Shown: positions 26,901-64,000 of the stretch, in pieces
Layout: every line of letters starts with the position of its first letter
How positions within the stretch are numbered: position 1 is the stretch's first letter
The notes under the pieces: model-generated
The model's input: the letters and a program-made list of their open reading frames with translations, nothing else
What the model was told of the DNA's origin: nothing
The model's database searches: none
Translations under genes and position numbers: made by a program
From: Anthostomella pinea
Taxonomy: Eukaryota; Ascomycota; Sordariomycetes; Xylariales; Xylariaceae
Direction: 5' to 3'
DNA length: 64,000 nucleotides
Assembly (NCBI GenBank): GCA_963556695.1
Contig: CAUWAG010000010.1
Location: forward strand, 186,001 to 250,000

Positions 26901-27619
26901 GAGCTCAGTCTTCGTCGACTCGCCTCCCACACAATCATCTTCGCCTGAGTCCTCTGCCGTTAAATTCCCTCCCGCTATGTCCTCCCGCCCTCCAAGTTCG
27001 TCGCAAGTATCCAGTCGAATGACCTCGCGCCGGGAGAAACATCTTCGCAAGGCAGCCTTCTATGCTGCGGACTCGCTTTCCATGTCCGACAAGCTGGGTG
27101 TGACGTTTGCCGAGTTCACCAGCCGGGAACTCCCCGTACAATCCGCCATGTGCTCTTTCGATTGCGCACAGGTGCTCGCCGAATGGATTGCCACTCTCCA
27201 GGATCGGGTTGGGAGATACCTGGGTGTGCTCGGAAAAGATGAGGTGGATCTGACCGGGGTGCCTGCGATCATGCTTCTGGAGGACGAGGACTTGAAACTC
27301 ATTAGCAAAGTCCAGGAGCTTCTGGCCAGTGCTGAGATCAAGATGAGTATGGATTTCGTCAACGGCAACGCCAATGGGAGCATCGACTCACGCATGCAAA
27401 TCGACCAATCGGGCGGATATGCGACCAAGATACTGCGGGTTACAGCATACATGCTGGATAAATCCGCCGTGTGGCCAGGTAAGTTGTCCATTCTGATTCG
27501 CGCTCAATCAAGATGATCTGACTCGGGAAACAGTCCTCCACCTGATGGCGCAATGTCTCGAAACTCATGCGAACTTTATGCGATCCCGTGCCGACAAATC
27601 TGTTGTGGCTAGTGAGTAG
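23910..27619 (+). CDS. C2H2 zinc-finger transcription factor with fungal-specific regulatory domain
   Basis: Exons 23910-23970, 24110-27478 and 27534-27619 encode 1171 residues. Intron 1 (139 bp) runs GTACGC...CTGAC...GTGAAG, intron 2 (55 bp) GTAAGT...ATCTGAC...AACAG, and both joins keep frame. A longer upstream frame lacks an ATG, so 23910 is the start. Two adjacent C2H2 fingers lie at residues 48-68 (C48, C51, H64, H68) and 76-97 (C76, C79, H92, H97), with A-R-L-E-H-L-K-R-H and A-R-R-D-L-L-L-R-H recognition helices as in ADR1/AmdX-type factors. An Asn/Ala run and a long Met/Asn/Ser-rich low-complexity part follow, then a fungal-trans-like region (around residues 510-1100, including Y-L-R-Y-C-H-P-H-L-P-F-L-H). 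It probably acts in the nucleus as a regulator; its targets cannot be read from the sequence. The AmdX-like label is by finger similarity only. Confidence 0.9.
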
Positions 27620-42392: not shown

Positions 42393-44298
42393 ACATCTCA
42401 CCCCCCCCTGCGGACCACCCCCCCACGGACCACTCCACACCACACCACTCTCATTCAGATGAAGCCATCTACAACCACCACAGTTGCTAAATACACTAAG
42501 GTCGTGGTGTTCTAACCATAATACAGCTCCCAGAATCCGATTCCGACCCTAAATCTTCACCAGGGACCTCTTGTGTGACCTCTTCGCCTGCAACGGAGTC
42601 CCTATAGACCCTCCTGTTCCTTAGCTCCATTTTGGCCTCCTTTATGGTAGCCATTGTGACGAATCGTTCCCTTGGTGTTGGTTTGACTGCTTTTCGAGTA
42701 GTATTAGCCTTTTTAGTCACTTGAGCCTCAAGCAGCTCATATTTGGCCCGTAGATTTGCAATGGTAGCAGCCTGAATATCCATGGCCTTGCCAGCCTTCC
42801 GCACCAACAAGCGCTCAGAGGGCCCCCCAAAAGAAGGGTCCTTTCTTTCGAGCTTTCGAGCACTCTCCCGCAAAGCCCGGCTTCCAGAGGGTGTTGTAAT
42901 AATGGTTTTAGCTACCATCTCGAGAAAATCTGGTATTGTGGCTCGCTCGGAAGCCTTAGGGTCCCTCTGGCGTACCCTGGCCACCCCCTTGTCCTCCAGA
43001 ATCACATATTTCGACTTCAACGCCTCCGTTCGGTTGCAAGGAACAATCCCAGTCTTTTTCCAGGCAATTCTGATGTTGAGGAGCGTCATTGTGTCCTTCC
43101 GGGCCTGCTCGTAGCACTCCAAAACCTCCTCCTTAGATGGCCTGAGTCCCAGACGGCCGCTGGGCGTCTCCTGGAGTAAGGTCTTCAACCTCTTCTTTAC
43201 CAAATTGAAGACTCTCATATCTAACACCTGGACTACATGGGAACAGTGAGGTTCATAAAAGATCAACCATACTTTGTTTCTCAAGCAGGTGGCTAGGAAC
43301 TCGTTATTTGTGTGGGAGTCGTGGCCATCACACACCAAAACCACCCATGTGTTGCCGTGGACCTCCCAAATGTGAGGAATAAAGATACATTGAAGCCATT
43401 CTAACGCAATAGGATTCGAGGTCCATCCATTGTGCAACGTAATAAACCTCCAGTCAGTGAATTTGTCCTCGTTTTGGTTGCTAAATCACTGGGCTTGTAC
43501 GTTAACCCCCTTGAGAATCACCAGCGGCGGCAAGGTCTCACCAGATCCGCTCACACACTCTAGGGCAGTTATCTATTCACCCTTCTCGACCCCTTTCTTC
43601 ATAGCCACGTTGCCAGAGGCCTCGGAGACGATTCCCATTTCGTCGACGTTGTACCAGCGTGCTGGCATGAGGTTAACCACGTCAGGGGCGTTACACCGAT
43701 AAAAAAAAATGTTGATATTTGCCGCTGTAGCACCATTCACTCGGTTGTAGTCGATAATACGAGACTTTATTATCTTGACTTCCGGGTTTCGAGACAGGAA
43801 CTTGGATGCCCAATTTTTCCCTAATTCTCGAGCATCCCTGGTGGCATGGAGCATCCGCTGGGCCATGAGACGGAACTTAGAGACCGCCGGAGAATACCCT
43901 AGCAGTGCTTGCCCCAGGGCCCAGCTTGCCAGCTTATGTTCGAGATACGGTGAGAGAGCCTATTGGAGAACGCTGGTCTCATTCCGCGTTGGGGTGCCAG
44001 AGATTCGTCGGTTGACGTACGAACGACTGATTTGCCATTCGAGGGCTGACGAGCAGACTGGAGCTCCGCGTTGGATGGCCAAAATGGCGGCTTCAGCTTT
44101 TATTTGACGGTCGTAAAATGACATCATGAGATTCAGTAGTGGATAAGGATTCAAATAGTGTGCTTTGTGAAAAAAAAGATGCAAAAGTGATGGTGTAGAT
44201 GGTGGATCACCATAATCCTGGTGGTTGGTGAATTACGCGTTTGTGGGTCAGAACGCGCTGGTCTGCGGGGGGGTGGTCCGCAGGGGGGTGGGAGATGT
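42393..44298 (-). mobile_element. pogo/Fot1-type DNA transposon, complete ends, 1906 bp
   Basis: The element is bounded by about 41-bp inverted terminal repeats. The left end begins ACATCTCACCCC, the right end read inward ACATCTCCCACC, and both continue with CTGCGGACCACCCCCCC and a short third block. Each end is directly flanked by TA (42391-42392 and 44299-44300), the target duplication of Tc1/mariner-pogo elements. Length, TIR size and one internal transposase frame fit the Fot1/Pot2 group. The transposase frame is interrupted by three stop codons, so this copy is non-autonomous, although its ends look intact and could in principle be moved by a source of transposase elsewhere. Confidence 0.92.
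42496..44127 (-). pseudogene. pogo-type DDE transposase with three in-frame stops
   Basis: A single minus-strand frame runs from ATG 44127 to the stop at 42496 (543 codons) without frameshift, but with TAG at 43962-43960, TAG at 43575-43573 and TGA at 43488-43486. The N-terminal part (to about 43870) looks like the Psq/CENP-B-type helix-turn-helix region. The catalytic core shows the three acidic positions: D in N-V-D-E-M-G, D in V-C-D-G-H-D and D in V-Q-V-L-D-M. The C-terminal ~150 residues are charged. Two stops fall where the family normally has Trp (G-E-stop-I-T-A and A-Q-stop-F-S-N), consistent with TGG-to-TAG/TGA transitions; the first fits CAG-to-TAG. This is the RIP-type spectrum. Confidence 0.88.
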
Positions 44299-44989: not shown

Positions 44990-47900
44990 ACCCTTTCTTG
45001 CCCTTTTTCTTGAGATCTCTCTTGACCCAAGAGATTATAGGAAGGTTTGTTATATCTGTTTCTAGCATGGCATTCTCTTTTGTTAGTGTGTTGGCAGCTT
45101 TGTTGCCATCAATATCTCTGTGTCCAGGAATCTACTTGACCGTCACTCCAGGAGTGTGTGCTGTGGCGAGTTCTTGGAATCGCAGAAAAATTTTCTGTGA
45201 TGTCTCGGGTGGAGTCCTATTGAGCCCATCCACCACTGATGTGTTGTCCAGGCAGACATATAGCTGTTTTCCGTGTCCAATTGCCCTGGCTGCTGCAAGA
45301 CCTTGGAGAGCACCATGGACTTCAGCATCCACTACTTCTGCTTGTAGAAGTCTGCCCCTTCCCCGGTATACTTCTTGTGTAGTGCCGCCTTTCCTGATGG
45401 TATAGCCCCATCCAGTGCGGGTTGTGCCTTGGTCGTCCAATTGTGATCTATCTGAATAGATAACAAGGTCAGTATTCGCATTTCTTTCCTGTAGCCATTG
45501 CTTAAAGAGCTCTGTTTCTTTGTCTTTGTCTTTACGGACTGGGGGCTTCTTTCATAATGGCTTGGTGAGTATTGGTCTCTGGAAGTCAGGGACTAGTTGG
45601 AAGCTCCTTTGTAGCCTTGTTGGTTCTTTGCGAGCTTGTATTTGGAGCCTGCCAACAAGAGGGTGTCTCTGATCTATTCGTCTTAGTCAGAGACCGTGAC
45701 GTCTTCTTATTGACTCTGCAAGAATTCCTGCTGGAGGAATCTGTGATTCAAAGTGTAGGATATGTCCAGGGTGTGTTTTCCAGACTGGCAAGATAGCTCT
45801 GATTGCCGTTCGTAGTACAGCATCTATCGTTCTAAGAAGCCCTTTAATGCGACATGCTAATGTCCCACCTAAGCTCCTAATTTTTTCCATTCCTGGGTAC
45901 CAGGCCTCCAGGCCATGTGTAAGAATAGGAATAACACAAGTTTTCACAGCCTTCTTGGTTAACTTTACTGGAAGTCCTTTGACTGTGTTGCATAGTCCTC
46001 AAAGGTGGTTTGCTACCCTACTAGCTTTCTTGGCCCAGTAGGAAACGTGATCTTTGAAGTTTAGTTTTCTATCCAGGAAGACACCCAGCCATCGCATGGA
46101 GTTTTTTGCTGTTCTGTTTATTGTCCTGTGGCGGACCGGAGGATTGTCTGAGTTCTTTTTCCGTGAGAAGTGCATGATCTCGGTTTTGTCGGGGTCAAAC
46201 TCAATAGCATTATTGTGTCCCTATTGGTTGAGTAAATGAAGGTTTTCAGAAGCCTCTGTAGCTGTTTCCTTAAGGTTCTTTCCAATATAGAGAGTCGCTA
46301 GGTCGTCTGCATATCCAAAGCGTCTCCTTTTCATACCAAGTCGGGCACAGATTGGCTCTGTATACAGCATATAAAGGATTGGAGAAGCTGGTGAGCCTTG
46401 TGGTAGCCCACAAGTGAGAGCTTTTATGTCGGTCACAATACCTTCAAACCGAACTCTTGCGGACCGTTCAGACATGAATGACTGGACCCATCTTATGAGA
46501 AAGTCTGGCCAGCCCTGTTCTCTCATGCGAACCACCAGCCGTCCCATTATGGCAGCGTCGAAGGCCCCTGTCACATCTGCTGTGACTACCGTTGCAACAA
46601 GGCCTTGGTCAAGGGCCTGCTCAATATCGTGTATGAGTGCAGCTACCAAGTCGGCGGCAGAGCGCTTTGGCAGAGCTCCAAAATGTTGTGGAGCTAGAAT
46701 TCCGAGTTTGATGACAAACCAGGCAATTCTTTTTGTAATGAGTCGTTCTAGGCCTTTGCCAAGACATGATAATAGCGATATTGGTCTGTAGGCCCTGGGG
46801 TTAGAGTAGTCTTTCTTGCCTGGCTTTGGGATCATCACCACCTCAGCTACTTTGAATGGTTTAGGGTGGTGTCCAATCTGTAGACAGGTCTGGAAAAGGG
46901 CTCTGATATGCTCCCCAATGACTGGCCAGCAAGCTTTCAGAATCCGTACTGTGAGGGTGTCTACTCCTGAGGAGTTGCTCTTGGTCCTTATAGTGCACCC
47001 TTCAGCCTCTTCTAGTCCGACATGGTATTCAAGGGGGATGTGTGGCTTGGCTTGTGTGATCTGAGCAGACCAGGGGTCGATGATATCGTTGTCTGGGGTA
47101 CTTCGTTCAAGCGTGGCTAAGCGTAGTGCATTTGCCTTGCTCTCTTGTGACTCAAAGATTTGGTCCCCTATGATGATTGGGGGGGAACGCAATCCTGCTG
47201 ACAGCTTGTGCCAGGAAACAATTCTGTACAGGTCTTTTGGTTCAGTCGCTGAATCAATTAGAGTCTGCCAGTACTCTCTCTTAGCTTTTTGGACCACACA
47301 GCGAAATTCCTGTCGGGCTGAATTTCGCCCTTCTTGGCTTGTGGTTTGTTTAGAAAGGGCCCTGTATGTCTGAACAGCTGCTTTGCAGTCATCATTCCAC
47401 CAAGCAGTGGGCCTAGATTGACGGGGCTTCTTGCCCACTGTCCTGATACAGCCTTAAATCATATTGATCAAGCTTTGTGTAAAGGTATCCACCTGGCCAG
47501 GGGATACACCCAGCCAGGGGAGTTCATGAATCCTGGTTTGGACATTGTCTGCCAGCTCTTGTAGTTTATCGTCCGGTACTATCCAATGATTGGTCTTAGG
47601 AACTCGGTCCCGATCTCCCTGAATTAGAATGACTATTCGTAATATCTCATGATCTGAGGTGCACTGAAGTGCATCATTGACTGAGGCTTCAGCCATGGGG
47701 ACATCTAAGAACACCAGATCCAGTACATTTCTATCGTCATGTGTTGGGACATCTGGTTCAGAAATCAGATCCAGTCCGTGGTCTGCCATAGTCTGTGCCA
47801 GTATGACGCCACCGTGATATCCTGGATTGCTCGAGTCCTAGGATATGTCGCCAGCATTAAAATCTCCAGCTATAACACAGCCAAAAGGTGGAGTCCATAC

Positions 47901-49885: not shown

Positions 49886-50029
49886 CCAGCTTGTGAGAAA
49901 AATTTTCTGCGCCTTGGCAAGGATAGTCAGGTACTGAGACAAATGCCTGCTTTAGTGCAGATATAGAGGTTACGCCCTAACAGCGGGGCGCCAAGAAAAA
50001 TAGTTGTTTTTGGCAAGAGTGTGTATGAC

Positions 50030-50850
50030 AGCTGTATGGATGACCACGTCGGCTAACCACGCCAGTGGAAGACGTTTACCCTGGAATACGTATGAGTCAT
50101 CCCGAAGGCGCCCTTGCAGGCAGCTCCTCATGGAGACATATCCGCCTACGCGAATCTTCATGCATGATGACGCATGCATATGTGAGGGATGAGAGCCGGT
50201 TGGCTACGATGGTCCGACAACACATGGCATACGAAATGGCGTTGAAGTCGGTTGAGTCAAGTGATTCAGCTGGTTTTCAGTAGCTGCTGTCGCCATATTC
50301 TCCAGTGCCTAGTGTCGGGCCTCAAGTTCATCCAGTCCCAATATCAGTATGCAGAATCCTGGCTTCCGTTCTTCCTAGTTCTTGCAAGCAAAGGCAACAT
50401 GTTTGCAGATGCTTACCTTTATACCTGACCATGATCATTGTATGTAAAGTACTTACGTTGGTAGAAAAGTGGCAGTCCAATATTGAATCTGTTTTTGAGG
50501 TGACATAGGTGGGTACTGGATAAAATCAGCGCTTCCGACCTTAAACTGCCATCTTCTGTCTGCATTCTCGATACATGCGACGACGACCATGTCGACTGCA
50601 ATTCCTGGGCATTCCTCCCGACAACACCTCCGTGGTACTCAACGGCTGGCCCACGCTACCTGCCTACACTGCTCTTTCGAGCGACTTGTTTCACTTTAAT
50701 CCTGATGGGCGCTTTTGGGCGAATTTATTCTAGACATCCGATGAGACTGCCGTCCCACCAGATGGGAGTATCGTCAGTAATGGGCGACTGGAAGACAAGC
50801 TTCAAAATGGGGCACAAGAAGTAAATTGACGCCGGCTCTACCAGCTACAT
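50030..50850. other. Short inter-element stretch, no supported gene
   Basis: No frame of note. It lies between the LINE 5' end and the copia remnant. Confidence 0.45.
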
Positions 50851-50854
50851 AGAG

Positions 50855-51170
50855 ATGGCAGGGCTTCTGCGAAAATATGCCAAAGACCATCACAAGCCTC
50901 GTGTGTATCAGTTTCTCACCATGACCAAGAAGATGAAGGTGGAACCCTCAGCGCCTAACACACAGGACCAGAATGGAGGCGCCGAGCGCTCGGGGGGTGT
51001 GATTAAGGACAAGGCCCGTTCGATGCGAAATGGGAGGCGATTACTGTGCTGTGAGGATCTCACCATCCCGTGTTGGCGAATTTGGGTCTCTCCAACACCG
51101 AAGCCATGGAGGTGTGAGGCGTATACAAGAAGCTGATCTCACGCCCGCTCTCGGGGTGGATGAGCGGCGG
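50855..51170 (+). pseudogene. Ty1/copia integrase remnant
   Basis: An open stretch contains E-P-S-A-P-N-T-Q-D-Q-N-G-G-A-E-R-S-G-G-V, a very characteristic segment of fungal copia-type integrase cores (the region of the catalytic glutamate), followed by I-K-D-K-A-R-S-M-R. Upstream and downstream parts of pol are missing or unreadable and the frame closes with stops after about 51130. No LTRs were found. It is a small relic. Confidence 0.75.
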
Positions 51171-51239
51171 TAAGAATGTGGCATCTGTGTGCGGGAAGGT
51201 GCTAGCAAGGCCATGTATCTATCTGCAGTTGAGATGTAC

Positions 51240-52263
51240 TCACTGCGCCTCCGTTTTTCCGCGATATTTGCAGCGACCAATGGCCACCAGTAGTCGTCGT
51301 CATCGGCCAGGCTTTGAGCGGTAGCCCGGGATCAGATCCTCATCTCCATGCCATCTTGCCTGTTTCTGCTGGTCGATGGGGCACTCGAAGTCGCCGAGGT
51401 GATCATATGGCATCACTGGCCTTCAGAGGATGCCATTGTCAGCTTGCTCTCATGCATCCTGGTTTTCGGCATGGAGCTTGATGTCCTCACAGGCGCTTCC
51501 AATGTCATATGGTATCGATTTTACGGCTCATGGGTGATTGCTCTTCTTTGCGATCTTGCAAACATCGTACTGCTACTCGCTCGGATCCAAAACCCCTCCC
51601 CAAATTACGACAGGTGTCTGGGTTGGATGAATGCCCCAAATAGGGCTAGGATTCGAACAAACGATGTCCGGCGGAGTTAGGACATCCATAAATAGGAGAT
51701 GTTTAAGATCATATCGTGATAATCCAGGGTTCTCTTCCGGGGCTTGCTTATGTTGTTTCTTGAAAGAATCGTGCGCCCTGAAGATATCTTTGCGGTTGGC
51801 GGCTACCATTCCAGCGGTTAAGGATCTTGTATATAAGAAGGGCAGTACAAGCAGGGTCTCAATGACGATAATTAGTCGTCCATTTGTACCGGCAACAGGG
51901 ATAGTTAGAGCCTTACTAACCTACACATAGTTCTTTTAAATAAAGTCGCCCAGCCTTCCTTTAGCATAATGGCCCAATGCTATGAGACAGCCCGCTTGCT
52001 TCGGCTCAACCTGTGCGCAATCCATGGCCATCCCTTCTCTGCTGTTATCCAGCCCCGTATTTGGCGTTCTTCAAGTTCTGTCCACCGACTTTGTTTAACC
52101 ATTGTGTTGTCCTCTTTTACCGGACCTCAGCATCTTAAACGATAAGTTGAGACATGTTGTCACCTCAGAACTCGAATAATCAAGTAGATTAATGAGAAAG
52201 CCAATTACTAGATGGCTAAGTCCTTTGCAAATATCCTGTAATTTAAACACACTTATCTAGCTA
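51240..52263. other. Intergenic downstream of the NLR gene
   Basis: Short overlapping frames on both strands (51348-51680 plus, 51573-51809 minus) without recognisable features. An AT-rich stretch at 52130-52260 is the probable 3' end region of the NLR transcript. Confidence 0.45.
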
Positions 52264-55200
52264 TTAACTGGCACTGACGCCAGTATGCGCTAGCTCCCAA
52301 GTATGCAAGGTTTCTAAGAGAGCTAGATAATATGGATGTTGAGCGCCCAAGACAGTTCGCCCAACCCGTACACATTCCCGTATCAAACCGAGAGCTTCTG
52401 GTAGTCGGCCTTGATTCCTGTACGTCGACGCCAGGTTGCTCATGCTGGTCAGCATGTCTGGATGATCCGGCCCGAGTTTCTGCTTACGAGTCTCCATCAC
52501 TTCTACCTCCAGTTTCTCTGCCTCCTCCCATCGGCCTTGATTCCAGTACGTCGACGCCAGGTTGCCCATGCTGGTCAGCGTGGAAGGATGATCCGGCCCG
52601 AGTTTCTGCTTGCTCATCTCCATCGTTTCCACCTCCAGCTTCTCCGCCTCCTCCCATCGGCCTTGATTCCAGTACGTCGACGCCAGGTTGGCCATGCTGG
52701 TCAGCGTGGAAGGATGATCCGGCCCGAGTTTTTGCTTGCGAGTCTCCATCACTTCCACGTCTAGCTTCTCCGCCTCCTCCCATCGACCTTGATTCCTGTA
52801 CGTCGATGCCAGGTTGCTCATGCTGGTCAGCATGTCTGGATGATCCGGCCCGAGTTTCTGCTTACGAGTCTCCATCACTTCTACCTCCAGCTTCTCCGCC
52901 TCCTCCCATCGGCCTTGATTCCTGTACGTCGACGCCAGGTTGCCCATGCTGGTCAGCGTGGAAAGATGATCCGGCCCGAGTTTCTGCTTACGAGTCTCCA
53001 TCACTTCTACCTCCAGCTTCTCTGCCTCCTCCCATCGGCCTTGATTCCAGTACGTCGACGCCAGGTTGGCCATGCTGGTCAGCGTGGAAGGATGATCCGG
53101 CCCGAGTTTCTGCTTGCGAGTCTCCATCACTTCTACCTCCAGCTTCTCCGCCTCCTCCCATCGGCCTTGATTCCAGTACGTCGACGCCAGGTTGCCCATG
53201 CTGGTCAGCGTGGAAGGATGATCCGGCCCGAGTTTCTGCTTGCGAGTCTCCATCACTTCCACCTCCAGCTTCTCCGCCTCCTCCCATCGGCCTTGATTCC
53301 TGTACGTCGACGCCAGGTTGCCCATACTGGTCAGCGTGGAAGGATGATCCGGCCCGAGTTTCTGCTTGCTCATCTCCATCACTTCCACCTCCAGCTTCTC
53401 CGCCTCCTCCCATCGGCCTTGATTCCTGTACGTCGACGCCAGGTTGGCCATGCTGGTCAGCATGGAAGGATGATCCGGCCCGAGTTTCTGCTTGCGAGTC
53501 TCCATCACTTCCACGTCCAGCTTCTCCGCCTCCTCCCATCGGCCTTGATTCCTGTACGTCGACGCCAGGTTGGCCATGCCGGTCAGCGTGGAAGGATGAT
53601 CCGGCCCGAGTTTCTGCTTGCGAGTCTCCATCATTTTCACGTCTAGCTTCTCCGCCTCTTCCCATCGGCCTTGATTCCTGTACGTCGACGCCAGGTTGCT
53701 CATGCTGGTTAGCGTGTCTGGATGATCCGGCCCGAGTTTCTGCTTGCGAGTCTCCATCACTTCTACGTCCAGCTTCTCCGCCTCCTCCCATCGGCCTTGA
53801 TTCCTGTACGTCGACGCCAGGTTGGCCATGCTGGTCAGCGTGTCTGGATGATCCGGCCCGAGTTTCTGTTTGCTCGTCTCCATCACTTCCATAAACAGCT
53901 TCTCCGCCTCCTCCCATCGGCCTTGATTCCAGTACGTCAACGCCAGGTTGGCCATGCTGGTCAGCGTGTCTGGATGATCCGGCCCGAGTTTCTGCTTGCG
54001 AGTCTCCATCACTTCCACAAACAGCTTCTCCGCTGGGCTCCATTGACCTCTTAGGTTACACACTTGGCCAACCATCTCGATGGCAGCAAGACTTTCCTCG
54101 TGCGTCCTCCCAAGTATCTTTGTTCTGTACTTCATCGCATCCTCCGCCATGCTTTGCGCCTCAGGCCCCTGGCCCATTTGCTGAAAATACCACGAAGCTT
54201 TATAAAGGATCGAAGTCCATGCCTCCAATGAGACTCTGTCTTTCGGCCGCTGCGCTCCCGCCGATACGGCGTGCGGCAGAAGCGCCCGGCATATTGCCCA
54301 GTTCTCATATGCTCCGGTCGGGAGCTGGGCGTCGAGGCGACGGATAAACTGAGACTTCCACTGCTCCTGCCGTCCCGCGGCTTCAAGCCATTGTCTCGTA
54401 GCCAGCTGGACCAAGCTGTGCATTTCAAATGTCCTTCCGTCCTCAACTGTAGAGATGAACGAGTAGTCGCGCAATGTCGAGACATCCATTTCGAACTGAT
54501 TATCCATGCTAGAATCCGATTCGACGTCTTCTTCGCTTGATTCTTGGTCGCTGGCCGAACCGTGCAAAGCAGGGCTCCGTTGGTATCGGTTTGGTGTACT
54601 CATGGGGCGTTCCTTCTCGTCCGGACTCTGTAGGAGGCTCTCAGGAATACCTTGGCGATCATAAAAGCTCATGAGCGAAAGCAGGTCGGCTGCAGATGGT
54701 CTGGTTCGACGGATGTGGTCGAATGAGATTTGCCACGTGATGATGATCGAGTTTCTGGCCTCTCTATCTCGCCGTAACTTACCGGCGTCATAATCGAGGA
54801 GATTCGCTTTTTTCCGATCACTCTGCTCAAACTTTTCGAGGTATTGTCGCACAGAGTAACGAGGAGCTTTCTTGGAGATGTAGGCTGTCGCTTGGACAAT
54901 AGCTAGCGGCATACGTTCGAGTGCGGCGGCGAGCGCCGTGGTGTTCTTGCTGTCCTGCTCCGGTCTGAGCTTTTTCTCGACAAGTGCTATCGCTTCGGCC
55001 TCGCTCATAGGTTCGACCTGAATGATACTATATGGCTCCACAAGATCTTCGGCCGCGCTCATGCTTCGGCTCGTGACCAGTACGGATCCGTTCTCGCAAT
55101 TCGGGAGATAATCGACAAGCCGTCCATCCGCATGTCCAGTTTGGCCATCCTCGTTACGGCTTGGAGGCTCGAGAAGGAAGCCGGCATCATCGACATTATC

Positions 55201-55860
55201 GAGAATGAGTCTCCACCTTCTGTCCCTCCCACCACGTAGCCAGCCGCACACAAGCTGGAAGATATTGCTCTGCGGTTCGTCTCGCCCGGGTATCTTGACA
55301 TGATCGGCGATCTCCCGGAAACTTTGTTTGTATCGCGTTGCGTTACTTGCGTGGACCCAGAAAACCCAGGTATCCGGTGATCGCTGTCGGACTTGGTACG
55401 CGTATTCGATGGCTAGCTGCGATTTTCTTCCACGAGTTAGCTTCTCGCCCTATGCCTATGCTAGTTATGCCTATGGCTTGTGTAGGTGTAGGTCGCGCAT
55501 ACCCAACGCCGCCCAGGCCTACGAGCGCGATACGTGTACCGGGGGTGGCAGATGCTTGGTGGATACGATCGAGTGTGTTGCCTCGCTGGATGAAGTCGTT
55601 GTCCTGGCCAAAGGGAATGATGGACGATGGATTTGGTGGAGTTTCTGGCCGTTCTGAGTCGGGGCCTCGTTAGCGCGTTGACGGTCGGCGTGGATCCAAG
55701 TGAACTGATCCAATGGAACTGATCCAAGGGAACTGATCCTAGTAGTATTATCCTACTTACCTGGCGGGACATGGTGATGAAATTCGGTATTGGCCGAACC
55801 GTTGATTACTCCGGCCTGAAAGCCAGAGTTGCCTGGCCCGAAATGTACCGCGGAAGCCAT
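52264..55860 (-). CDS. NLR: amyloid-type N-terminal motif, NB-ARC ATPase, 13 TPRs
   Basis: Three exons (55761-55860, 55503-55653, 52264-55426) encode 1137 residues. Introns of 107 bp (GTAAGT...GACTCAG) and 76 bp (GTATGC...GTGGAAG) keep frame; the second lies inside the P-loop codons, and splicing restores G-L-G-G-V-G-K-S-Q (about residues 79-87). Residues 6-26 hold a short Gly/Asn motif (H-F-G-P-G-N-S-G-F-Q-A-G-V-I-N-G-S), followed by the P-P-E-R-P-E-T-P-P linker seen in fungal STAND proteins. Walker B is L-I-L-D-N-V-D-D (~157-164); V-L-V-T-S-R is a sensor motif; a winged-helix part with M-H-S-L-V-Q-L-A-T-R follows. From about residue 550 there are 13 near-identical 42-residue kinesin-light-chain-type TPRs. 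It is a cytosolic receptor by family analogy; repeats would recognise ligand and the ATPase oligomerise. It diverges from the HeLo-like gene that carries the same motif. Confidence 0.93.
52390..54030 (-). repeat. Thirteen-copy 126-bp TPR-coding tandem repeat
   Basis: Thirteen successive 126-bp units (42 codons) inside exon 3 of the NLR, nearly identical in DNA. The consensus includes K-Q-K-L-G-P-D-H-P and N-Q-G-R-W-E-E-A-E-K-L. Variation is concentrated at few codons: Arg/Ser/Met near M-E-T-R-K, Asp/Ser and Thr/Met after D-H-P, Ala/Ser/Gly before N-L, Arg/Trp after T-Y, and Asp/Glu/Phe at the repeat end. The homogeneity creates long open frames on the opposite strand (52332-53894), which are shadows. 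Confidence 0.95.
55693..55741. repeat. 14-bp tandem repeat in NLR intron 1
   Basis: The word GATCCAA followed by GGAACT-like sequence recurs at 55693, 55707, 55721 and, partially, 55735, all within the first intron of the NLR gene. Small, noncoding, possibly polymorphic. Confidence 0.85.
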
Positions 55861-56140
55861 GGCATGATAGGATTCAGTTGCAACAATTGAGGTTGACTAT
55901 TGACGGGTGATTACAGGGCCATCTATGATCTAGGGAAGAGCAGGCTATTTGGTGGGAGGTGGGACATAGGAGTCGAGATAGGACTCGAGCACCATACGAC
56001 CCACCGGCATCGTTACCATACGATACGACCCCCGTCAGCTCGGCGGCTAAAACCCCGCACATCGTCGGCCGGGCTTCCCCGCACATCGTCGGCCGGGGCT
56101 TCGTTGCCTTAGATGTCCTTCTCTACGACACGAGAACACC
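55861..56140. promoter_or_regulatory. Shared divergent promoter of the NLR and HeLo-like genes
   Basis: Only 280 bp separate the two start codons (55860 minus, 56141 plus), so both promoters must lie here and the genes are probably co-regulated. A 24-bp direct duplication (containing GCACATCGTCGGCCGGG at 56057 and again at 56081) sits about 40-85 bp before the plus-strand ATG. No clear TATA box was found. Confidence 0.6.
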
Positions 56141-57001
56141 ATGGCAGACCCGCTTAGTGTCGCGGCCAGCGTGGTTGGCATTACGGTTCCAGCCCTGCAC
56201 GCTACGAGACTCCTTCTTACTGATTTGCAAGAGCTCAAGGATGCTCCTAGTACCGTGCGGCATTTGCAGGAAGACCTGCGTGCTCTCGACGCCGCCATCA
56301 AATCCCTTCAAGAAATCGACGACACGAAATGGGCAGTTTTAGGCCAAGACGTGGCTGAAAACACCAAGACGACGGTTGGCACATGCCAGACGGCATGTAC
56401 ATTCTTCCGAGCCGACATCCAGCATTGGACTCGAAATTCTACCGCGGGAAAGCTGAGCTTGCGGGACCGAGCGAGTGTAGGCTTTTTCAAGCGAGACCGG
56501 ATCAAGTCATTGACAGAGCAGCTTCAAAGCTGTAAATTGTCCATTGCCTCTGTTGTAAATGTGGCCGTCTTGTAAGCTGTTTGTCTCACGAAGACACAAG
56601 TACAAACACGGCTGACTGTAGTTTACAGGTACGCCTCTCTTCGAAACGGCCACGTTGCTGAAGAGATCAGGACTGTGGTATCTTCGCGACAGACAGAAAT
56701 CACAGACGCCATTAGGACGACAAAGGATCGTCTTCAAGCTGTCGAAGACAGCATAACAACGCTGGACCTTGGTTCCCGCGAGCGAGATCAGCAAACGCTG
56801 GGACAAGAACATGAAACCTTTGCCGCTTCGCTCGAACTGTTGCAGGAACTGCTGGCCAAGTTACAGGCAGAGACGGTGGCGAAGGCTACTGCACAAAGCC
56901 AGGGTTCTGTTGGTACAGTCACGTTTGGCAGTCAAAACTCGGGCTTCCAAGCTGGACAGATCTATGGTGGGGTGACCGGGATCAGCTTTGGTAATAAGTA
57001 A
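56141..57001 (+). CDS. HeLo-like (sesA-type) effector with C-terminal amyloid-type motif
   Basis: Exons 56141-56571 and 56629-57001, with a 57-bp intron (GTAAGC...GCTGAC...TTACAG), give 267 residues ending at TAA. The start M-A-D-P-L-S-V-A-A-S-V-V-G-I and the following helical ~200 residues match the fungal HeLo-like N-terminal domain, a helical bundle that in HET-S and related proteins attacks membranes. Residues about 237-267 form a glycine-rich tail (V-T-F-G-S-Q-N-S-G-F-Q-A-G-Q-I-Y-G-G) that aligns with the N-terminus of the divergent NLR. By analogy with HET-S/NWD2 and sesA/STAND pairs, this tail would be templated by the activated NLR and release the membrane-active domain (inference). 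No stop or frameshift is present. Confidence 0.88.
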
Positions 57002-57223
57002 AGCCAGCAGGTTGGAAGAGAGGCAAGAGAGCTGAGGGACAACGAGTATGAGAATCGCGTGGACCCCGAACCATAGCATTTGTTCAAGGGGCAAATGTGC
57101 AGCGTCAGCAGCAAGCAAACGGAAGTTGACTGCTCGCTTTATAGATTTTGGTGTATCTAGGGACGCGTCAGCTTTGGATCTTTCATGTCCATGCGTGGGT
57201 GTTCAACGTGAAGCCCGCAACTC

Positions 57224-57855
57224 TTACTTCATGTCTGTATTTGACGGATGGCCCTCGTCGAGCTTGGTGTTTTTGATCTGGACTATCTTCTCTTGTAACC
57301 GCGCTGCATCTTTTGTCATCCCAAGATTATATTGGTTTGCGGACCACATATCGTAAAGAAATGCAAGGCTCTCTGTTGGTTCGTCTGAGTCGTTCTGTAT
57401 CTGGTTAAAGATATACCGGAGATGCTCTCCAAGTGCTTGACCCTCTCTGATATGATGCAAAAGCCATCCAATCTGAACTTGCACCTGCAGTAGATGATGC
57501 GGTATCACCTCTGTGGCTGATCTCGTGCTAGCTTCCAGTAACGCTCTGGTGTGACGAACCAGACGATCGCGATATGAGCGCCACTCATGCTGACGGTATA
57601 TAGAGAACGCTATAACGCATTGACTCATTTGTAATGAGTGATCTCTTTGGTCCTATCCTGACGGAGATTCATCCAGCTGTGGGTAAGCGAGTGCATGGCC
57701 GTTGCGTGATACCCATTGATACTACTCCTTTCAATCAGAGCGTATGATTCTAGTTGCTTCAAAGCTTTAGACATGCGAAACGGATCCCAGGAGTGGTTGT
57801 CGGATTGGATGAACGGTGGAAGTTTAGAGATGTACATATGCCTCGTCGGATGGCG
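57224..57855 (-). pseudogene. Second NLR fragment (winged-helix/TPR start), frameshifted
   Basis: Read on the minus strand, about 57855-57625 encodes an STAND winged-helix end (A-L-K-Q-L-E-S-Y-A-L-I-E-R and M-H-S-L-T-H-S-W-M-N-L-R-Q-D). After a frame change near 57625 the next frame (57628-57224) continues with H-E-W-R-S-Y-R-D-R-L-V-R-H and a first TPR-like part ending in L-D-E-G-H-P-S. The ATPase half and most repeats are missing. It is paralogous to, but clearly different from, the intact NLR next door, so it is a relic of another receptor rather than a duplicate of this one. On its 5' side it abuts a LINE RNase H fragment. Confidence 0.72.
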
Positions 57856-57859
57856 CGTG

Positions 57860-58320
57860 TTCGATGCCGTCGAGCAACTATGAAACATTGGGCGTGCCCG
57901 GGGCACTGCGCCTTTGAGGGCAATGAACTGGGAGAGAAGCTGGCTAAGGCCGGCTCTAAGCTCTCCAACGTCGACTCCGACTGCACGCCGACGGCGTACG
58001 GCATCAAAGCAGAGGCGGGACTCAAGCTCAAAGTCTCGCGCGACATGTGGTAGACCAAGGCCCAGACCAAGCTGTCGGCCCGCTACAAGTACTGGGACCT
58101 GAAGTACAAACTGCGCTGTCACGAAGTGCTGCAGGTACTTAAAAGGCCTTCACTACACCGCTTCCTCGCTGTCCGCTCAGGGCACGGCGACTTCTCTTGG
58201 TATCATGTCAAGTTCAAACATCAGGACGCCGTCCTCAACTGCTCGTGCGGCCGGAGCAAGACTCCGACGCACTTCATCCACCGCCGGAAGACTCTGGCAC
58301 GGTAGACTGATCCGGGGCGC
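57860..58320 (+). mobile_element. LINE RNase H/C-terminal fragment of a different family
   Basis: Plus-strand coding similarity to the end of fungal LINE ORF2 proteins: an RNase H end (H-W-A-C-P-G-H-C-A-F-E-G-N-E-L) then, after an in-frame TAG at about 58051, K-L-S-A-R-Y-K-Y-W-D-L-K-Y, L-H-R-F-L-A-V-R-S-G-H-G-D-F and a cysteine cluster with C-S-C-G-R-S-K-T-P-T-H. The rest of the element is absent. The sequence differs from the LINE at 44-50 kb, so at least two LINE families are present. Confidence 0.75.
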
Positions 58321-58410
58321 GGCCGGCTGACGCCCTGTAATTATTTAAACCCCCCGCTCGCCTCCTGTCCACCTATTCCTCAGATTCAAGTTGGTCTTGG
58401 TCACGCCACT

Positions 58411-60105
58411 ATGTCTAAAACTGCGATACTCTGGAGACTCTACAAGGATCAAGAGAATAAGGCTTTCCAGACCCTCCATCCAAATCATGATTGTCGACGT
58501 TGGTCATTAAGGATCTTCCAGGAGAGATCCCTGGCGGCCGCGAGCGCCCTCAGGAACGAACAAAGATCCGACATACTAAAGCACCTTAGTTCTGCTGTCG
58601 ACTATCGAAACCAGATTGCAGCGTATTATGAGCCCGACAGCTCACTTGGACATGCTCACTTTATATCGACTCTTACGACAGTCATTAATAAACTCCAATC
58701 CATGCAAACCACCAACAAACCCCCAGTTCCGGACTCGGTATCCCAATCTGATTCTAATAATCGCTACAGCGCTCTCGTCGTTCACGACACTCTGTCACCT
58801 GGCGATGACATTCGACATACAAGAGCTGCTCAAAAGGCGGAGCTTGATGAACCGAGTCTTGACGACGAAGATTACTCGTTCTTCATCTAACACATCGAGG
58901 CTGCAATTGGGGGGATAGTAAGCACCTGGCAAGACTACACAGAGGGCAGCCTCTCTATGACTGGTGCATTTCTAGGCTAGTTCCATCTTGGCAGTAAACC
59001 TTCTCGGATTACTAACCGCTTGGTAGTGTCTAGCATCATGTGTCGAGAACTCTCTGCAAGCATACATGCTGCCAAGCTCTGCTTCGAGAATTGGTTCGCA
59101 GACAAGGGGTATTCTGACCGCTTCAGTGCTCTGCATCGTGTGAGCGTTGAAGATATGGAGTATATCAAAAGGTCAGTGTCTGTCTATAATCGTTCATGAA
59201 GTGTACTGTTGACAGTTTGGAAGTCTATTCAAGCCGGGTTCATTTCCGGTTCCGTACCCGTTGAGCCGATTGCAAGAAGAAAAGCCAGACCCTCACGAAT
59301 GCGAAGTGATGGTTGGCGTCCTTCTACGTTTAAGGCAGTATCAGGCCGAACAAGGACACGCCATCGGCACAATTGAACGTCTGGAGCATGATTTGTTTTT
59401 ACCCCAATATAAATGCCTTTTCCCTCCAGGACAACTCGACGCTATGAAGCCGGTACTACGCGCTGCCAAAGCAGCTGCCAAGACCCATGTCGATATTTGG
59501 TCTATCGCATCAATCCAGGCTTGGGCTATGGATAACACACAATAGAGCTCAATAGGCACGTTCTAGACCTACCTTTGGTTCCAATGTTTGCCCATCGCTA
59601 CGACCGTTATATCCTTGGCTTGGAAGTCAGCCAGCGTTCTGAGAAGTTGGAGGAGTTCTGTAACAGCCATCAGACACGCCTCTACTGGGGTGGGAAACGC
59701 CCACGCAATAAATCGGCCATCGACGAGTCTGTTGAGAAATGGATTCTTATTACAGACCAAGGAAGCATAAGCCTTGCAAAACAGATTGGTCAAAACAGGC
59801 ATCAACAGGAATCGATAATACGGCTGTTGATAGACGACAAGTTCAGCTACAGGGAGTTGACTAAACAGATCAAAGAAGCGAAGAAGCCCGTCGACTGGGG
59901 AAACCTGCGACGATTTATCGAGCACAGTTTGAAAACGACAGACATATGTGCCATTCGAGCAGCACTTTGCGATAGCTTGGATGTTTCTATTCGCGATAAG
60001 TACACGGAAACTCGAGCAGCGTTATCTCTCGCACAAAAAGACGACACTGAATTTCCCAAGCTCCTCGAGCTTGTACAGGGTAAAATCCCAGACATTTGCT
60101 CGTAA
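58411..60105 (+). pseudogene. Unrecognised gene, broken by stops and a frameshift
   Basis: I do not recognise the family. Coding-like segments follow one another: 58411-58887 (159 codons from ATG), then the same frame after TAA at 58888-58890 and TAG at about 58978, then 59217-59547, then 59545-60105. The two stops could each be a former glutamine codon (CAA, CAG). Between the last two segments the frame is lost at AACACACAATAG; removing one CA unit would restore it, which suggests dinucleotide slippage. A GTCAGT...TTGACAG interval at about 59172-59216 may be an intron but does not join in phase. The predicted protein is hydrophilic and helical, without signal peptide or membrane segment. Adjacent transposon fragments suggest an accessory gene. 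Confidence 0.45.
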
Positions 60106-60279
60106 AAGGGGAAGTAGGAGCACTCGATATTTGAGTCTTGAGGGGCTATTTCGTTATCATGTGTAGTAATATTGCTGCTTTCCTTCTCTTGTTTGGCTAG
60201 GATAACATCCACGATTCTCCAGATGTTCGTGTGTGGAAATGCCGATTTTGCCGTGACGAAGGAACGTTTATCCCACATT

Positions 60280-62400
60280 GGGAGGTCTTCAGCGGTGGTC
60301 AGACGGGCTAGATGGAGGACGGCACTACTTGGAAGACCGCATCATCAACCGGACTATCTACACCGCTCCGGAGAGGCTTAAGCCTCCGTACCGTTACACC
60401 CACCCGGCTCCCGCCTATGGCCTTGGCACAATAGCCCTGCGGGTGCTGACCCCGTATGACTCGATGATGGAGAACTACGAAGAAGGACCTCCGATCGATG
60501 CCAGAAGCTACGGTCAATGGATCGCACGGCGTTGGTACAACCACCCGGACGACACGTTTTCACTAGCCCTGAGCTCCAACATCTTTGGAACAAGGCTATC
60601 AGCGCTGACAAGACGTATTGCAATATCTATGCTAGTGTTGGAAAAGGAGACAGAGCCTTACCTCCTAGCCTAGGGATTGACGTACAGGCTATCGACTACG
60701 AAATTGAAGGCAGAGGAGTCCTCTTGTATAGAGGATCAATCTGGGTGCCTGACTACGAGCCCCTTAGGACGGCATTGGTACAACAGACGCACGACTCCCA
60801 CATCACAGGACACCCGGGAAGGAATATCACAGGATGGATCTTACAACAAAACTACTTCTGGCCCTAGCAATACAAGACAGTACACCGCTTCTGTAGAAAT
60901 TGCAGTATTTGTGGCAGGTCCAAGGTCTGGTGTCAAGCAAAGCAGGGACTTTTACGCCCGCTGCCTATACCAGACCGTTTTTTTAGCGAGCTTTCTATTG
61001 ACTTTATGACCGAGCTTCCCGGAGACGGGGACGCCCCACGAAACATGATGGTTACGGTTGCCAGAGTGTTGGGAACATTTACGCTCGAGCCACAAGATTC
61101 TATGGAAGCTGAAGCCTGTACCGAAAAGTTTGTTTGGAGCCACTTTCGCTTTCATGGCTTCCAAACTTCATCACGTCTGACCGAGGGAACAACTGGGTGG
61201 GGAAGTTCTGGACTAGATTATGCCAGCTAGTTCGAGTCAAGCAGCGCCTATCGACAGCCTATCACCCTCAGACAGACGGCCAAACAGAACGCATGAATCA
61301 GGAAGTCATTGCCTACTTACGCGCTTTTGTGGCCTATGCACAGGATGACTGGGCCAAACTCTTACCCACAGCCCAGCTAGCCATCAACAACAGACCGAAT
61401 TCGAAGACAGGCCTCAGCCCCTTTTTTGTGCTGTATGGTTACCACGCCGACCCCATCCAACAACGACCTTCGCGCCGCCCCAACACATCAAAAGACCCCA
61501 AAGCAAGGACAGAGGAGTTCGTCACGCGCCTCCACGAAGCCCAGGAGATAGCTCAGGCCGCCATGGCCACAGCACAGCAGATAATGGAGCACCAGGCGAA
61601 TCGAAGCCGCCGCCCAGCAGAGAGATTCCAGACTGGCGACAAGGTGTGGCTCAACCTCAAAAATGTCTCGACTCCACAGTTGAAGAAGAAACTTGCTTGG
61701 ACACACGCCAAATACGAGATTACCAAGATGATTTCCCCTGATGTGTACGAGCTGAACGTCCCAAGCAATATTAGGAAACGCTTTTTTGTGGACCTATTAC
61801 GACGTGCTACAGAGGATCCCTTCCCATCTCAAAAGGTCGATGACACACAACCACCACCACTTCTCGACGCCCAGACCCCTTATGGTCAGTTGAGAGGATT
61901 CTTAAGGCTGATAAATTTGGGAACAAATGAAAGGTCTTGGTAAAGTGGACAGAATATGTCGAACCAACTTGGGAACCGGGAAACAGTCTGTTTGAGATAA
62001 CGCTTCTTCAGACTTCGCCAGGAACCTCGCGTTCTGCACCATATCATCAGCAGTTATTCTCTGCAACCTCCACGTACGTGCCCGCCAATACTTCCTGCGA
62101 TGGTACCTGTAGTCTGACTCACATGAGAAAATGGATCGGTCCAAGCTTCTTCACATCACGCGTCAACCATGTAGCTCCCCAAGAATGGATCAGCTCGGAC
62201 CTGTCCGTACCTACCCATCACGACAGTCAGGGTGCTGTGACAACCACAGCAGCGAGATGGTCTGTCTTCTGGGTGGGTTTATGCCCTGTGCGTCTCTGCC
62301 CCACTGGAGATCTTCCGGTATCTATTTCCGGCTCCCATCAAACAAGTATCAGCAACGTTTCTCCGCCAGTGTAGGCCGCGTCACAGGGGTCCGCCGCTAT
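60280..62400 (+). mobile_element. Ty3/gypsy chromovirus remnant (integrase and chromodomain)
   Basis: Integrase pieces are readable in order: the zinc-binding H-H-C-C domain (H-D-S-H-I-T-G-H-P-G, C-R-N-C-S-I-C, about 60785-60925) with a stop between its halves, a core start (D-F-M-T-E-L-P, about 60995), then after a frame change I-T-S-D-R-G-N-N-W, A-Y-H-P-Q-T-D-G-Q-T-E-R (61134-61943), a G-D-K-V-W-L-N-L C-terminal fold, and a chromodomain (V-K-W-T-E-Y-V-E-P-T-W-E-P-G-N) containing a TGA at about 61928. That order is diagnostic of chromoviruses. Gag, protease and reverse transcriptase were not found, so the copy is 5'-truncated. Sequence after the chromodomain (62262-62352) matches the LTR-like fragment at 40.4 kb. 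Confidence 0.87.
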
Positions 62401-62419
62401 ATATCACTAAAGTAGCTAT

Positions 62420-62880
62420 TAAGCGAGGCTTAGTGGCGGCTTGGCATCTACCCCGCTACTCTGCACTTTTCCGTATGTGGAAATGGATCAATAATGAAGA
62501 CCCCAGGCGGCTATGAAAGTAAACAACGATAATATCCGACCTTTCGTCCTTATCAATCCCTTTGTCCCTTCTTACTGTGGATTGTCGTCATGTCAGCAAC
62601 GTTGAGCACGAACGTCGTCAGTACCAGGTCTACATCATTGCCACTCCGTCTTTACCGCCAGGGCAGAAGGAAGATGACCCGAAGCTGCGTCATACTCGAC
62701 GGGATATACACACGTCATTGAGACTCACTCAGTACATAAAATTGATTTAAACGCCATTTTTAAAATCTTCTTTTATGATAGAAACGACCTGAGTGTACCC
62801 TGTCTGGTCCAAGTGTTGGCTCAAACGAAGACAAGTCGTGTGTCTCGCAGCATATGGTATTGAAGGGGCATAGATTACGC
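62420..62880. other. Short inter-element stretch, no supported gene
   Basis: No frame with recognisable features. It probably includes the 3' flank of the truncated membrane-protein gene that follows. Confidence 0.45.
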
Positions 62881-63269
62881 TTATAGCGCGGCTACGACTA
62901 TTAAGCACAAGATAGTCGTAATAATGGCAAAACATAGGCTGCCAATCAAATACCCCACGCTTTCACCCTGGACGGAGTGAATCCAGTTTGCAACGTCTCC
63001 GGCGCTCGACACAAACTTCCGGACAACTATGACGGGAATTGCGTAAAGAACACATGAAGCCAACCCCAGTAGGATGGGTATGGTGAATCTTAACCAGATG
63101 GAATCCATGAACAGATCTCCAAGAGCTGTGATAATCGCAAGCCCTGTTAGGCATGTGAGGAGAAGACTGCCCACAATCCACGGGTCGCGGATGGGGTCAG
63201 CCTTGAACCCTCTAAGGGTTTTCTTCAACGCATTAAGCTGGCTGATATCAATACCCAGGTTGTTCTGAA
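62881..63269 (-). pseudogene. Membrane protein gene truncated by LINE insertion
   Basis: A minus-strand frame is open from the LINE junction (about 63269) to a stop at 62881. It encodes a hydrophilic start (N-N-L-G-I-D-I-S-Q-L-N-A-L-K-K) followed by about four hydrophobic segments (G-S-L-L-L-T-C-L-T-G-L-A-I, F-T-I-P-I-L-L-G-L-A-S, a short one, and A-I-I-T-T-I-L-C-L-I-V-V-A-A-L at the C-terminus). The frame continues right up to the element end without an ATG near it, so the upstream part of the gene was separated by the insertion. No family is recognised. Confidence 0.55.
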
Positions 63270-64000
63270 CACACTCTTGCCAAAAACAACTATTTTTCTT
63301 GGCGCTCCGCTGTTAGGGCGCAACCTTGATATTTGCACTAAAACAGGCACTTCTCTCAGTAATTGACTATCTCTGTCAAGGCACAAGAGAATTTTTTTCA
63401 CAAGCCGGATGGCACCCTTTCACGACGGGCCCCCAAACACGCCCGTGGCCGTCCCAAAGACGACCACCGGCGGCATGCTCAAATCCCCGGCCCCTAGAAA
63501 GACATACAGCCCGGCAACTCCGAGCAGGCTCCGCCAGGCGCTGCTTGATGACATCAGCAGCAGCCCGTCACAGGTCTCTGAGGCTGACTTTACCGTTATT
63601 TCCCCTCTGAAAGGAAAATCCCGAAATATCAATGATAACAGCACCACTGGAATAAAACGACCTTAATTAAACGAAATCTCAACAGACCAAGCCATTACAC
63701 GCGATATAAGGAATAAAACCTCCTCCTCAGAGTACCAAGACCAAGTTGCCAGAATACTGGCTAAAGACAAGCACCTTTATGAAGCCAGGATGACAATGTT
63801 TCGAGAGTATGCTGCAGTGGTTGATAAGACACTTAAGAAAGCTGGAACTGAACTATACTCTTATGCCAAGGAGTTCAGCGCTTTCTTCTCTAAATGTCTA
63901 AACGAGTGGCTGGAAACCCGAGATCTGCCCAAAAGAAAGACCATCCCTGGGGGGATAGGGATGGTAAAGCCCACCATGACCTTTGCCCAAGCTGTCTCCT
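63270..64000 (+). mobile_element. Second Tad1-like LINE, 5' end, runs off the window
   Basis: From ACACACTCTTGCC at about 63269 the sequence is colinear with the 5' end of the minus-strand LINE (50026 downward), including the leader and ORF1. The two copies are in opposite orientations and face away from each other, about 13 kb apart, with the NLR/HeLo locus between them. Differences are dominated by C/T and G/A changes plus a few indels in the leader. Confidence 0.9.
63409..64000 (+). pseudogene. LINE ORF1 of the second copy, nonsense codon, partial
   Basis: It starts at ATG 63409 (M-A-P-F-H-D), the same start as in the other copy, and follows its protein closely to the window edge. A TAA at 63664-63666 interrupts the frame where the other copy has CCT-CAG-TCA; here the codons read CCT-TAA-TTA, all explained by C-to-T or G-to-A changes. 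After the stop the same frame continues (T-S-S-S-E-Y-Q-D-Q-V-A-R-I-L-A-K-D-K) to the end of the window. Confidence 0.85.

Follow-up and report, generated by a model that had tools for sequence, protein, structure and literature searches.

An NLR/HeLo-like gene pair with PP-like motifs in Anthostomella pinea and a sensor half that appears to carry two matched output blocks

Can a receptor that would act on its neighbouring protein through a shared terminal motif be connected to a different protein by exchanging motif and protein together? The question is raised by a head-to-head gene pair of the fungus Anthostomella pinea, located at positions 52264–57001 of the 64,000-nucleotide stretch analyzed here (hereafter the window; C7:186001–250000 of a 53.7-Mb genome assembled into 16 contigs). 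The pair, with both genes intact, consists of a nucleotide-binding oligomerization domain-like receptor (NLR) of 1137 aa with an NB-ARC domain and tetratricopeptide repeats (TPR), and of a HeLo-like (PF17111) protein of 267 aa, referred to below as the effector. The spliceosome-type introns, the PF17111 effector and the NB-ARC-TPR receptor would by themselves point to a filamentous fungus. The pair is very probably a module for regulated cell death made up of two genes, of the PNT1/HELLP type, for which we infer amyloid formation, templating and killing; what was computed here is the pair with its domains and matched motifs, the sequence specificity of the tags, the duplication and the mosaic. 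What is new is the surroundings of the pair, in which one sensor half appears to carry two matched tag-plus-effector blocks.

The gene pair and its shared motif

The two genes are adjacent and divergent, with 280 bp between their start codons, and the same motif stands at the N-terminus of the NLR and at the C-terminus of the effector, as had been claimed by an earlier sequence-only reading of this DNA. Its claim that neither gene is interrupted also holds, given that both frames are open with introns predicted from the sequence (NLR exons 55860–55761, 55653–55503 and 55426–52264 on the minus strand; effector exons 56141–56571 and 56629–57001 on the plus strand); an alternative acceptor of NLR intron 1 is possible 9 bases further in. 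The features of the two genes are the following.

55761–55860, minus strand: NLR exon 1, residues 1–33, carrying the amyloid-type motif and followed by a phase-1 intron; encodes MASAVHFGPGNSGFQAGVINGSANTEFHHHVPP
55795–55848, minus strand: receptor PP-like motif, residues 5–22; Pfam Ses_B 17.8 and 19.9 bits (N-terminal pieces) and 13.0 bits (whole protein), cut-off 23.2
55503–55653, minus strand: NLR exon 2, its end falling within the P-loop (GLGGVG; split between GLGGVG and KS)
52264–55426, minus strand: NLR exon 3, with the remaining NB-ARC, DUF7779, the TPR array and the stop
54382–54708, minus strand: DUF7779, residues 324–432, first domain of the sensor half; Pfam 32.5 bits, cut-off 27
52459–53970, minus strand: TPR array, residues 570–1073, 12 core units of 42 aa, nearly alike
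56141–56571, plus strand: effector exon 1, bulk of the HeLo-like domain (PF17111, residues 2–201), predicted helical bundle
56572–56628, plus strand: effector intron, GTAAGC...ACAG, 57 bp, predicted
56629–57001, plus strand: effector exon 2, with the domain end, a helical stretch, the C-terminal motif and the stop
56918–56971, plus strand: effector PP-like motif, residues 241–258 of 267; Ses_B 20.0 bits (whole protein), 20.5 and 23.3 bits (pieces), cut-off 23.2

In the Pfam comparison the receptor contains an NB-ARC domain (32.8 bits, cut-off 23.5) and 15 TPR_10 stretches, its P-loop is at residue 79, and no N-terminal effector domain is present among the families listed for the whole protein (the best 25 of 31), the short motif standing in its place. 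The effector matches PF17111, a family named HeLo-like in PMC9815663, with 83.5 bits (cut-off 27.2). Two direct repeats, CCCGCACATCGTCGGCCGG, were noticed by eye at window 56053–56097, shortly upstream of the effector start.

Receptor residues 5–22 and effector residues 241–258 are identical at 12 of 18 positions, and different codons are used at 7 of the 12 identical residues, from which it follows that the likeness is not that of a recent DNA copy. The first 34 residues of the receptor and the effector give a local score of 54, a value that was reached by none of 2000 shuffles of this receptor segment (maximum 38), by none of 2000 shuffles of the effector (maximum 40) and by none of 2000 in a repeat with the effector tail (maximum 45). 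When the whole 1137-aa NLR is shuffled (n = 500) the mean is 41 and the maximum 75; the full-length comparison alone is thus not significant, and the shuffle test has force only when it is restricted to the receptor end. The strength of the match is that of the two ends and of the family profile, and it is with this restriction that the earlier claim of a likeness beyond chance stands. A chance or compositional resemblance of two glycine-rich ends, with which the whole-NLR shuffles exceeding 54 would agree, is extremely improbable in view of the end-restricted shuffles, of a genome-wide scan for PP motifs that ranks exactly these sites at the top, and of a second pair type that carries a matched tag of its own (both described below). 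A degenerate DNA pattern for the motif core has five matches in the genome, which are the four motif sites of the C7 copy and its duplicate on C9, plus one on C15 that was taken as chance because its reading frame is closed by a stop within the motif.

The motif had been likened to both sigma and PP motifs, and a comparison with published profiles had been suggested as a check. In this comparison the PP model matches at scores borderline to its cut-off and the sigma and HET-S models give no match, in such a way that the PP part of the proposal is retained, as PP-like, and the sigma part is dropped. The model concerned, Pfam PF17046 (Ses_B), is the sole signaling-motif model that matches the two window ends (for the receptor, among the best 25 of 31 families); it is a PP motif wrongly named according to PMC12261475, and is employed as PP in PMC8086366. 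In a six-frame scan of the 53.7 Mb it gives five matches at E <= 10, none of them above the cut-off, and ranks 1–4 are the window motifs (21.0 and 18.0 bits) and their C9 duplicates. PP motifs have been defined as NxGxQxGxN (PMC9815663), as G-phi-Q-phi-G (PMC7885112) and as FxGx(x)NxGLQLxGxNxGxL (PMC3321046). A G-x-Q-x-G core centered on Q is present as GFQAG in both proteins, and the motif begins at NLR residue 5, within the range of positions 5–9 at which the majority of PP motifs begin (PMC9815663). Taken together, these observations support narrowing the motif family to PP-like (RHIM-like).

Other motif families were considered and set aside. For sigma, the NACHT_sigma model has no genome match at E <= 10, PF17106 has no match on the motif pieces, and the repeats GxGxQFNxx or GGTQNINT given as consensus in PMC3321046 are absent by eye. 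For HET-s and HRAM, the effector holds one motif copy instead of two 21-aa copies, and no HET-s-type Pfam model matches the motif pieces at E <= 10; a match of the HET-S model elsewhere (C5:2763888, 27.7 bits, above cut-off) is probably due to chance, no NLR-like frame being visible by eye in the 4.2-kb stretch that contains it. For PUASM, the effector is PF17111 and not PNP_UDP, and the pattern FxGxGxQxxGxGxF taken from PMC9815663 is absent by eye. A literature text search for the core letters returned no fungal NLR paper by title.

The gene arrangement is that published for amyloid-signaling pairs (PMC5485727, PMC7885112), and among these the predicted pair equals the PNT1/HELLP layout and belongs, as a pair, to a known kind. 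PNT1/HELLP of Podospora anserina and Chaetomium globosum, as described in PMC7885112 and PMC5485727, likewise combines an NB-ARC-TPR receptor that has its motif at the very start, a HeLo-like effector with a terminal motif, adjacent genes and a GxQxG core; the window motif differs in having I for the last N of NxGxQxGxN, and F and A as core hydrophobics. The prion-forming regions published in PMC7885112 are PNT1(1–31) and HELLP(214–271), to be compared with a motif at receptor residues 5–22 (in a 33-residue exon 1) and at effector residues 241–258. C. globosum has a third gene, a lipase with the motif; in this genome no third gene was found by the PP scan, whose sensitivity is limited (it missed a motif relic at C9:529 kb). 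The NWD2/HET-S and HRAM families are alike in layout and in presumed logic, and differ in the number of motif copies; the sigma systems (het-eN, sesA, sesB) are alike in having a G/N/Q-rich motif common to receptor and effector ends, and differ in their repeats. The RHIM of mammalian RIP1/RIP3 shares the G-phi-Q-phi-G core, and PP and RHIM prions cross-seed in part (PMC7885112); the RHIM core is G-(I,V)-Q-(I,V)-G in the same source, whereas the window core has F and A, and no kinase is found with it.

On the basis of these likenesses, the following sequence of events can be proposed. The TPR array would sense a ligand, as is presumed for the family, upon which the NB-ARC domain would oligomerize, as is general for the family, and would cluster the PP-like motifs of the receptor N-termini. 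The clustered motifs may then nucleate a cross-beta template, which would convert the matching motif at the C-terminus of the HeLo-like partner; the converted protein would attack the membrane and the cell would die. The earlier interpretation of the locus as an amyloid cell-death module gains support from the NB-ARC-TPR receptor, the PF17111 effector, the shared motif and a divergent layout that matches published pairs.

Besides the full-length shuffles already described, several points weigh against this interpretation. Both whole proteins score under the PP cut-off (20.0 and 13.0 vs. 23.2), and the motif deviates from NxGxQxGxN by the I on both sides, with four of the five fixed positions kept, which is why we use the name PP-like and do not count the motif as a strict PP member. 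The introns are predicted. The model of effector exon 1 is helical (single-sequence prediction, mean predicted local distance difference test score 77), and in comparisons with the PDB it matches generic helical bundles, with no HeLo or MLKL structure among the best 50 listed in each of two comparisons; the modeled fold thus seems not to discriminate among helical bundles and is neutral on HeLo, neither for nor against. In a sequence search of the PDB, apolipophorin was matched twice, both times weakly (E 0.034 and 0.049). The borderline scores of the whole proteins could also be taken to mean that the shared segment is another kind of interaction motif, such as an ordinary beta-strand or a short linear motif, and not an amyloid template. 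We consider this improbable, because the composition (G, N, Q and F, with few charges), the GxQxG core, the terminal positions and the layout agree with PP systems whose prion formation is reported as proven in PMC7885112.

A second pair type with its own tag

Contig C5 contains three further divergent NLR/PF17111 pairs (A, B and C), near 3.57, 3.70 and 3.90 Mb. They share with the window pair the divergent layout and a sensor half of 89–93% DNA identity, and their effectors have 25–27% protein identity to the window effector; the counterpart of the effector intron lies at the aligned position (junction placed by hand). Under the gene model used here, premature stops interrupt each of the three NLRs; the effector frame is open in A and B, the intron aside, and is not open in C. 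Exon 1 of the C5 NLRs holds SDGSR[VI]FQGNIQGD[F] and the effectors end near NNSRGFQGQIDAASF, which gives an SRxFQGxI-like tag that matches its own neighbor and not the window motif. None of the Pfam motif models matches the C5 ends.

The own-pair scores, which were obtained for A and B, are 52 for B (reached by 0/2000 shuffles with the effector tail and 1/2000 with the whole effector) and 42 for A (7/2000), and the cross-pair scores are 18 (reached by 1159/2000 shuffles) and 28 (333/2000, the null level). Since the C5 pairs are duplicates of each other, they count as one independent case, not as three. A double repeat in the C5 effector tail was also considered and rejected: with the best match masked, the remainder is at the null level (679/2000 shuffles reach it). 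Comparison of the tags predicts that the two pair types would not cross-talk, and the matched motif may in this manner provide the specificity of the wiring, the tag of the second type matching solely its own partner.

One sensor half and two output blocks

How can two pair types with dissimilar tags and effectors share a sensor? The answer suggested by the DNA comparison is a mosaic, the limits of which involve three features.

54750–54770, no strand assigned: putative recombination breakpoint, near residue 306, where identity with the DNA of C5 A/B falls from 93% to 67–68% (C: 89% to 66%)
55861–56140, no strand assigned: intergenic region, 280 bp from start codon to start codon; 38–39% identity to the C5 relatives (forced alignment)
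57004–57130, plus strand: effector 3' flank, 76–82% identity to the sequence behind each of the three effectors on C5; other edge of the putatively exchanged block

Window NLR positions 54034–54760 are 93.3% identical to C5 A and B, a value equal to that between A and B themselves, and 89.0% identical to C. From 54761 to 55426 identity is 67–68% (A, B) and 66% (C), in exon 2 it is 61–63%, and in exon 1, the intergenic region and the effector it is 36–45%, about the forced-alignment level of the dissimilar DNA at 57131–57447 (44%). Identity is back up to 77–78% at 57002–57130 and drops again beyond. A and B are 93–97% identical to each other in all the parts compared. The step is significant in Fisher tests (1e-36 for A, 4e-35 for B and 3e-25 for C; P = 0.44 for the A–B control), the boundary having been picked from the same data, and it lies after the best Pfam stretch of NB-ARC (to residue 290) and before that of DUF7779 (from residue 324).

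Stronger constraint on one part of the NLR was rejected as the cause of this step because silent divergence steps too: the number of silent substitutions per silent site (dS) between the window and A or B is 0.11–0.17 for the sensor half and rises to 1.8 for the NB-ARC half, compared with 0.16 and 0.12 between A and B (two of the three C5 copies). From the joint step in identity and dS we conclude that recombination has in all likelihood connected one sensor half with two old lineages of output block. The genes being head to head, a single exchange would swap both halves of the matched tag and keep the sensor (DUF7779 and TPR), and the matched tag and the effector seem to travel as an exchangeable output cassette.

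Traces of both types are found elsewhere in the genome. The effector 3' flank occurs seven times, six of them directly behind an effector or effector relic. Truncated copies of the C5-type effector (residues 1–98, 93–94%) lie at C7:256416–256709 and C9:692416–692709, roughly 10–13 kb from each intact pair. The NB-ARC end of a relic at C2:4189737 is nearer to the window type (93.7% vs. 86.8%), that of a relic at C9:597478 is nearer to the C5 type (89.4% vs. 84.4%), and a relic at C9:1226802 begins at the breakpoint itself. Several side observations belong here as well. A 94% copy of part of the 3' flank is present at C10:921964–922062, on a contig where the effector searches show no effector. 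At C9:529434–529947 there is an effector exon 2 relic followed by the 3' flank, with the motif variant NTGFQRGVVYGG and no exon 1 in the 700 bp read upstream. An NLR at C3:1827528–1828844, in an 819-aa open frame, has 42% identity to the window NLR over residues 33–351, and upstream of it, in another frame and perhaps joined by introns, there is a SesA-type domain (46.3 bits), which would make it an effector-in-cis counterpart of the split pair.

We tentatively propose, while giving the idea somewhat less than an even chance, that the genome has two or more output cassettes that can stand in for each other, the locus being one of them and each consisting of the effector gene, the shared promoter, the motif exon and the front of NB-ARC as a contiguous block, that the motifs act as non-crossing wires linking the same sensor to different killers, and that the C5 tag is an undescribed amyloid signaling motif.

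The duplicate on C9 and the meaning of exchange

Window 50022–64000 (to the last base of the window) is duplicated at C9:700846–714776, and the C9 copy does not contain window 57448–57621. The C9 NLR is open, with 1179 aa and 13 TPR units, one extra 42-aa unit in another arrangement, and the two effectors differ at 1 of 267 residues. The two copies differ at 15 of 1827 sites in NLR 54034–55860 (introns included) and at 106 of 1770 in the TPR array and 3' end (52264–54033; best alignment, one gap), an odds ratio of 7.7 against the rest of the NLR, and among the 25 core TPR units of the two copies there are 23 different protein sequences. This faster change of the TPR block is as would be expected of reshuffled recognition repeats, such as those reported in PMC4986451. 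Positive selection on the units is not supported (overall pN/pS, the ratio of replacement to silent polymorphism per site, 0.49), though several positions vary by replacements alone.

The earlier suggestion that intactness reflects selection finds some support, the second copy on C9 being intact as opposed to the three C5 relatives with premature stops in their receptors. It may be instead that the pair is intact through recency alone, as a young segmental duplicate out of use and not yet inactivated, which would be compatible with the proposed mechanism and bears on whether the pair is still functional. The difference of 0–1.4% between C7 and C9 outside the TPR block, the stops in the three C5 receptors and the relics on other contigs speak for recency; against it, replacement changes per site between C7 and C9 are below silent ones, on small counts (dN/dS, the replacement-to-silent rate ratio, is 0.26 for the NLR before the TPRs, with 8 silent and 7 replacement changes, and 0.16 for the effector, with 2 and 1), and the right flank with its transposon pieces (57622–64000) diverges more than the genes (92/6379 vs. 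18/2688, P 0.0016; 89 of the 92 are transitions). On balance, recency alone appears unlikely. Fragments of transposons were noticed near the pair at window 46224–47453, 42499–43485 and 61113–61940, with matches to reverse transcriptase, to DDE transposase and, weakly, to a Tf2-1-like SH3 domain, and a 1236-aa open frame at 23806–27513 contains a Fungal_trans domain as well as C2H2 zinc fingers.

It has been published that receptor and effector genes stay linked despite variable orientation, and it has been proposed that such a pair is inherited as a functional unit (Daskalov and colleagues, PMC3321046). Coupled evolution of motifs within a cluster (PMC3321046, PMC4518210), and NLR domain reassortment and repeat reshuffling (PMC4986451, PMC10197012, PMC12258605), have also been described. 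Among the open-license papers listed in a search, none was found to be a precedent for a sensor half common to two matched tag-plus-effector blocks with a located breakpoint. The sequence of this genome indicates a receptor-effector unit seen in the course of being exchanged, with two matched blocks on one sensor half, an arrangement by which the orthogonality of amyloid tags becomes testable within a single genome. If this proposal is true, the same sensor can be connected to different killers through tags that do not cross.

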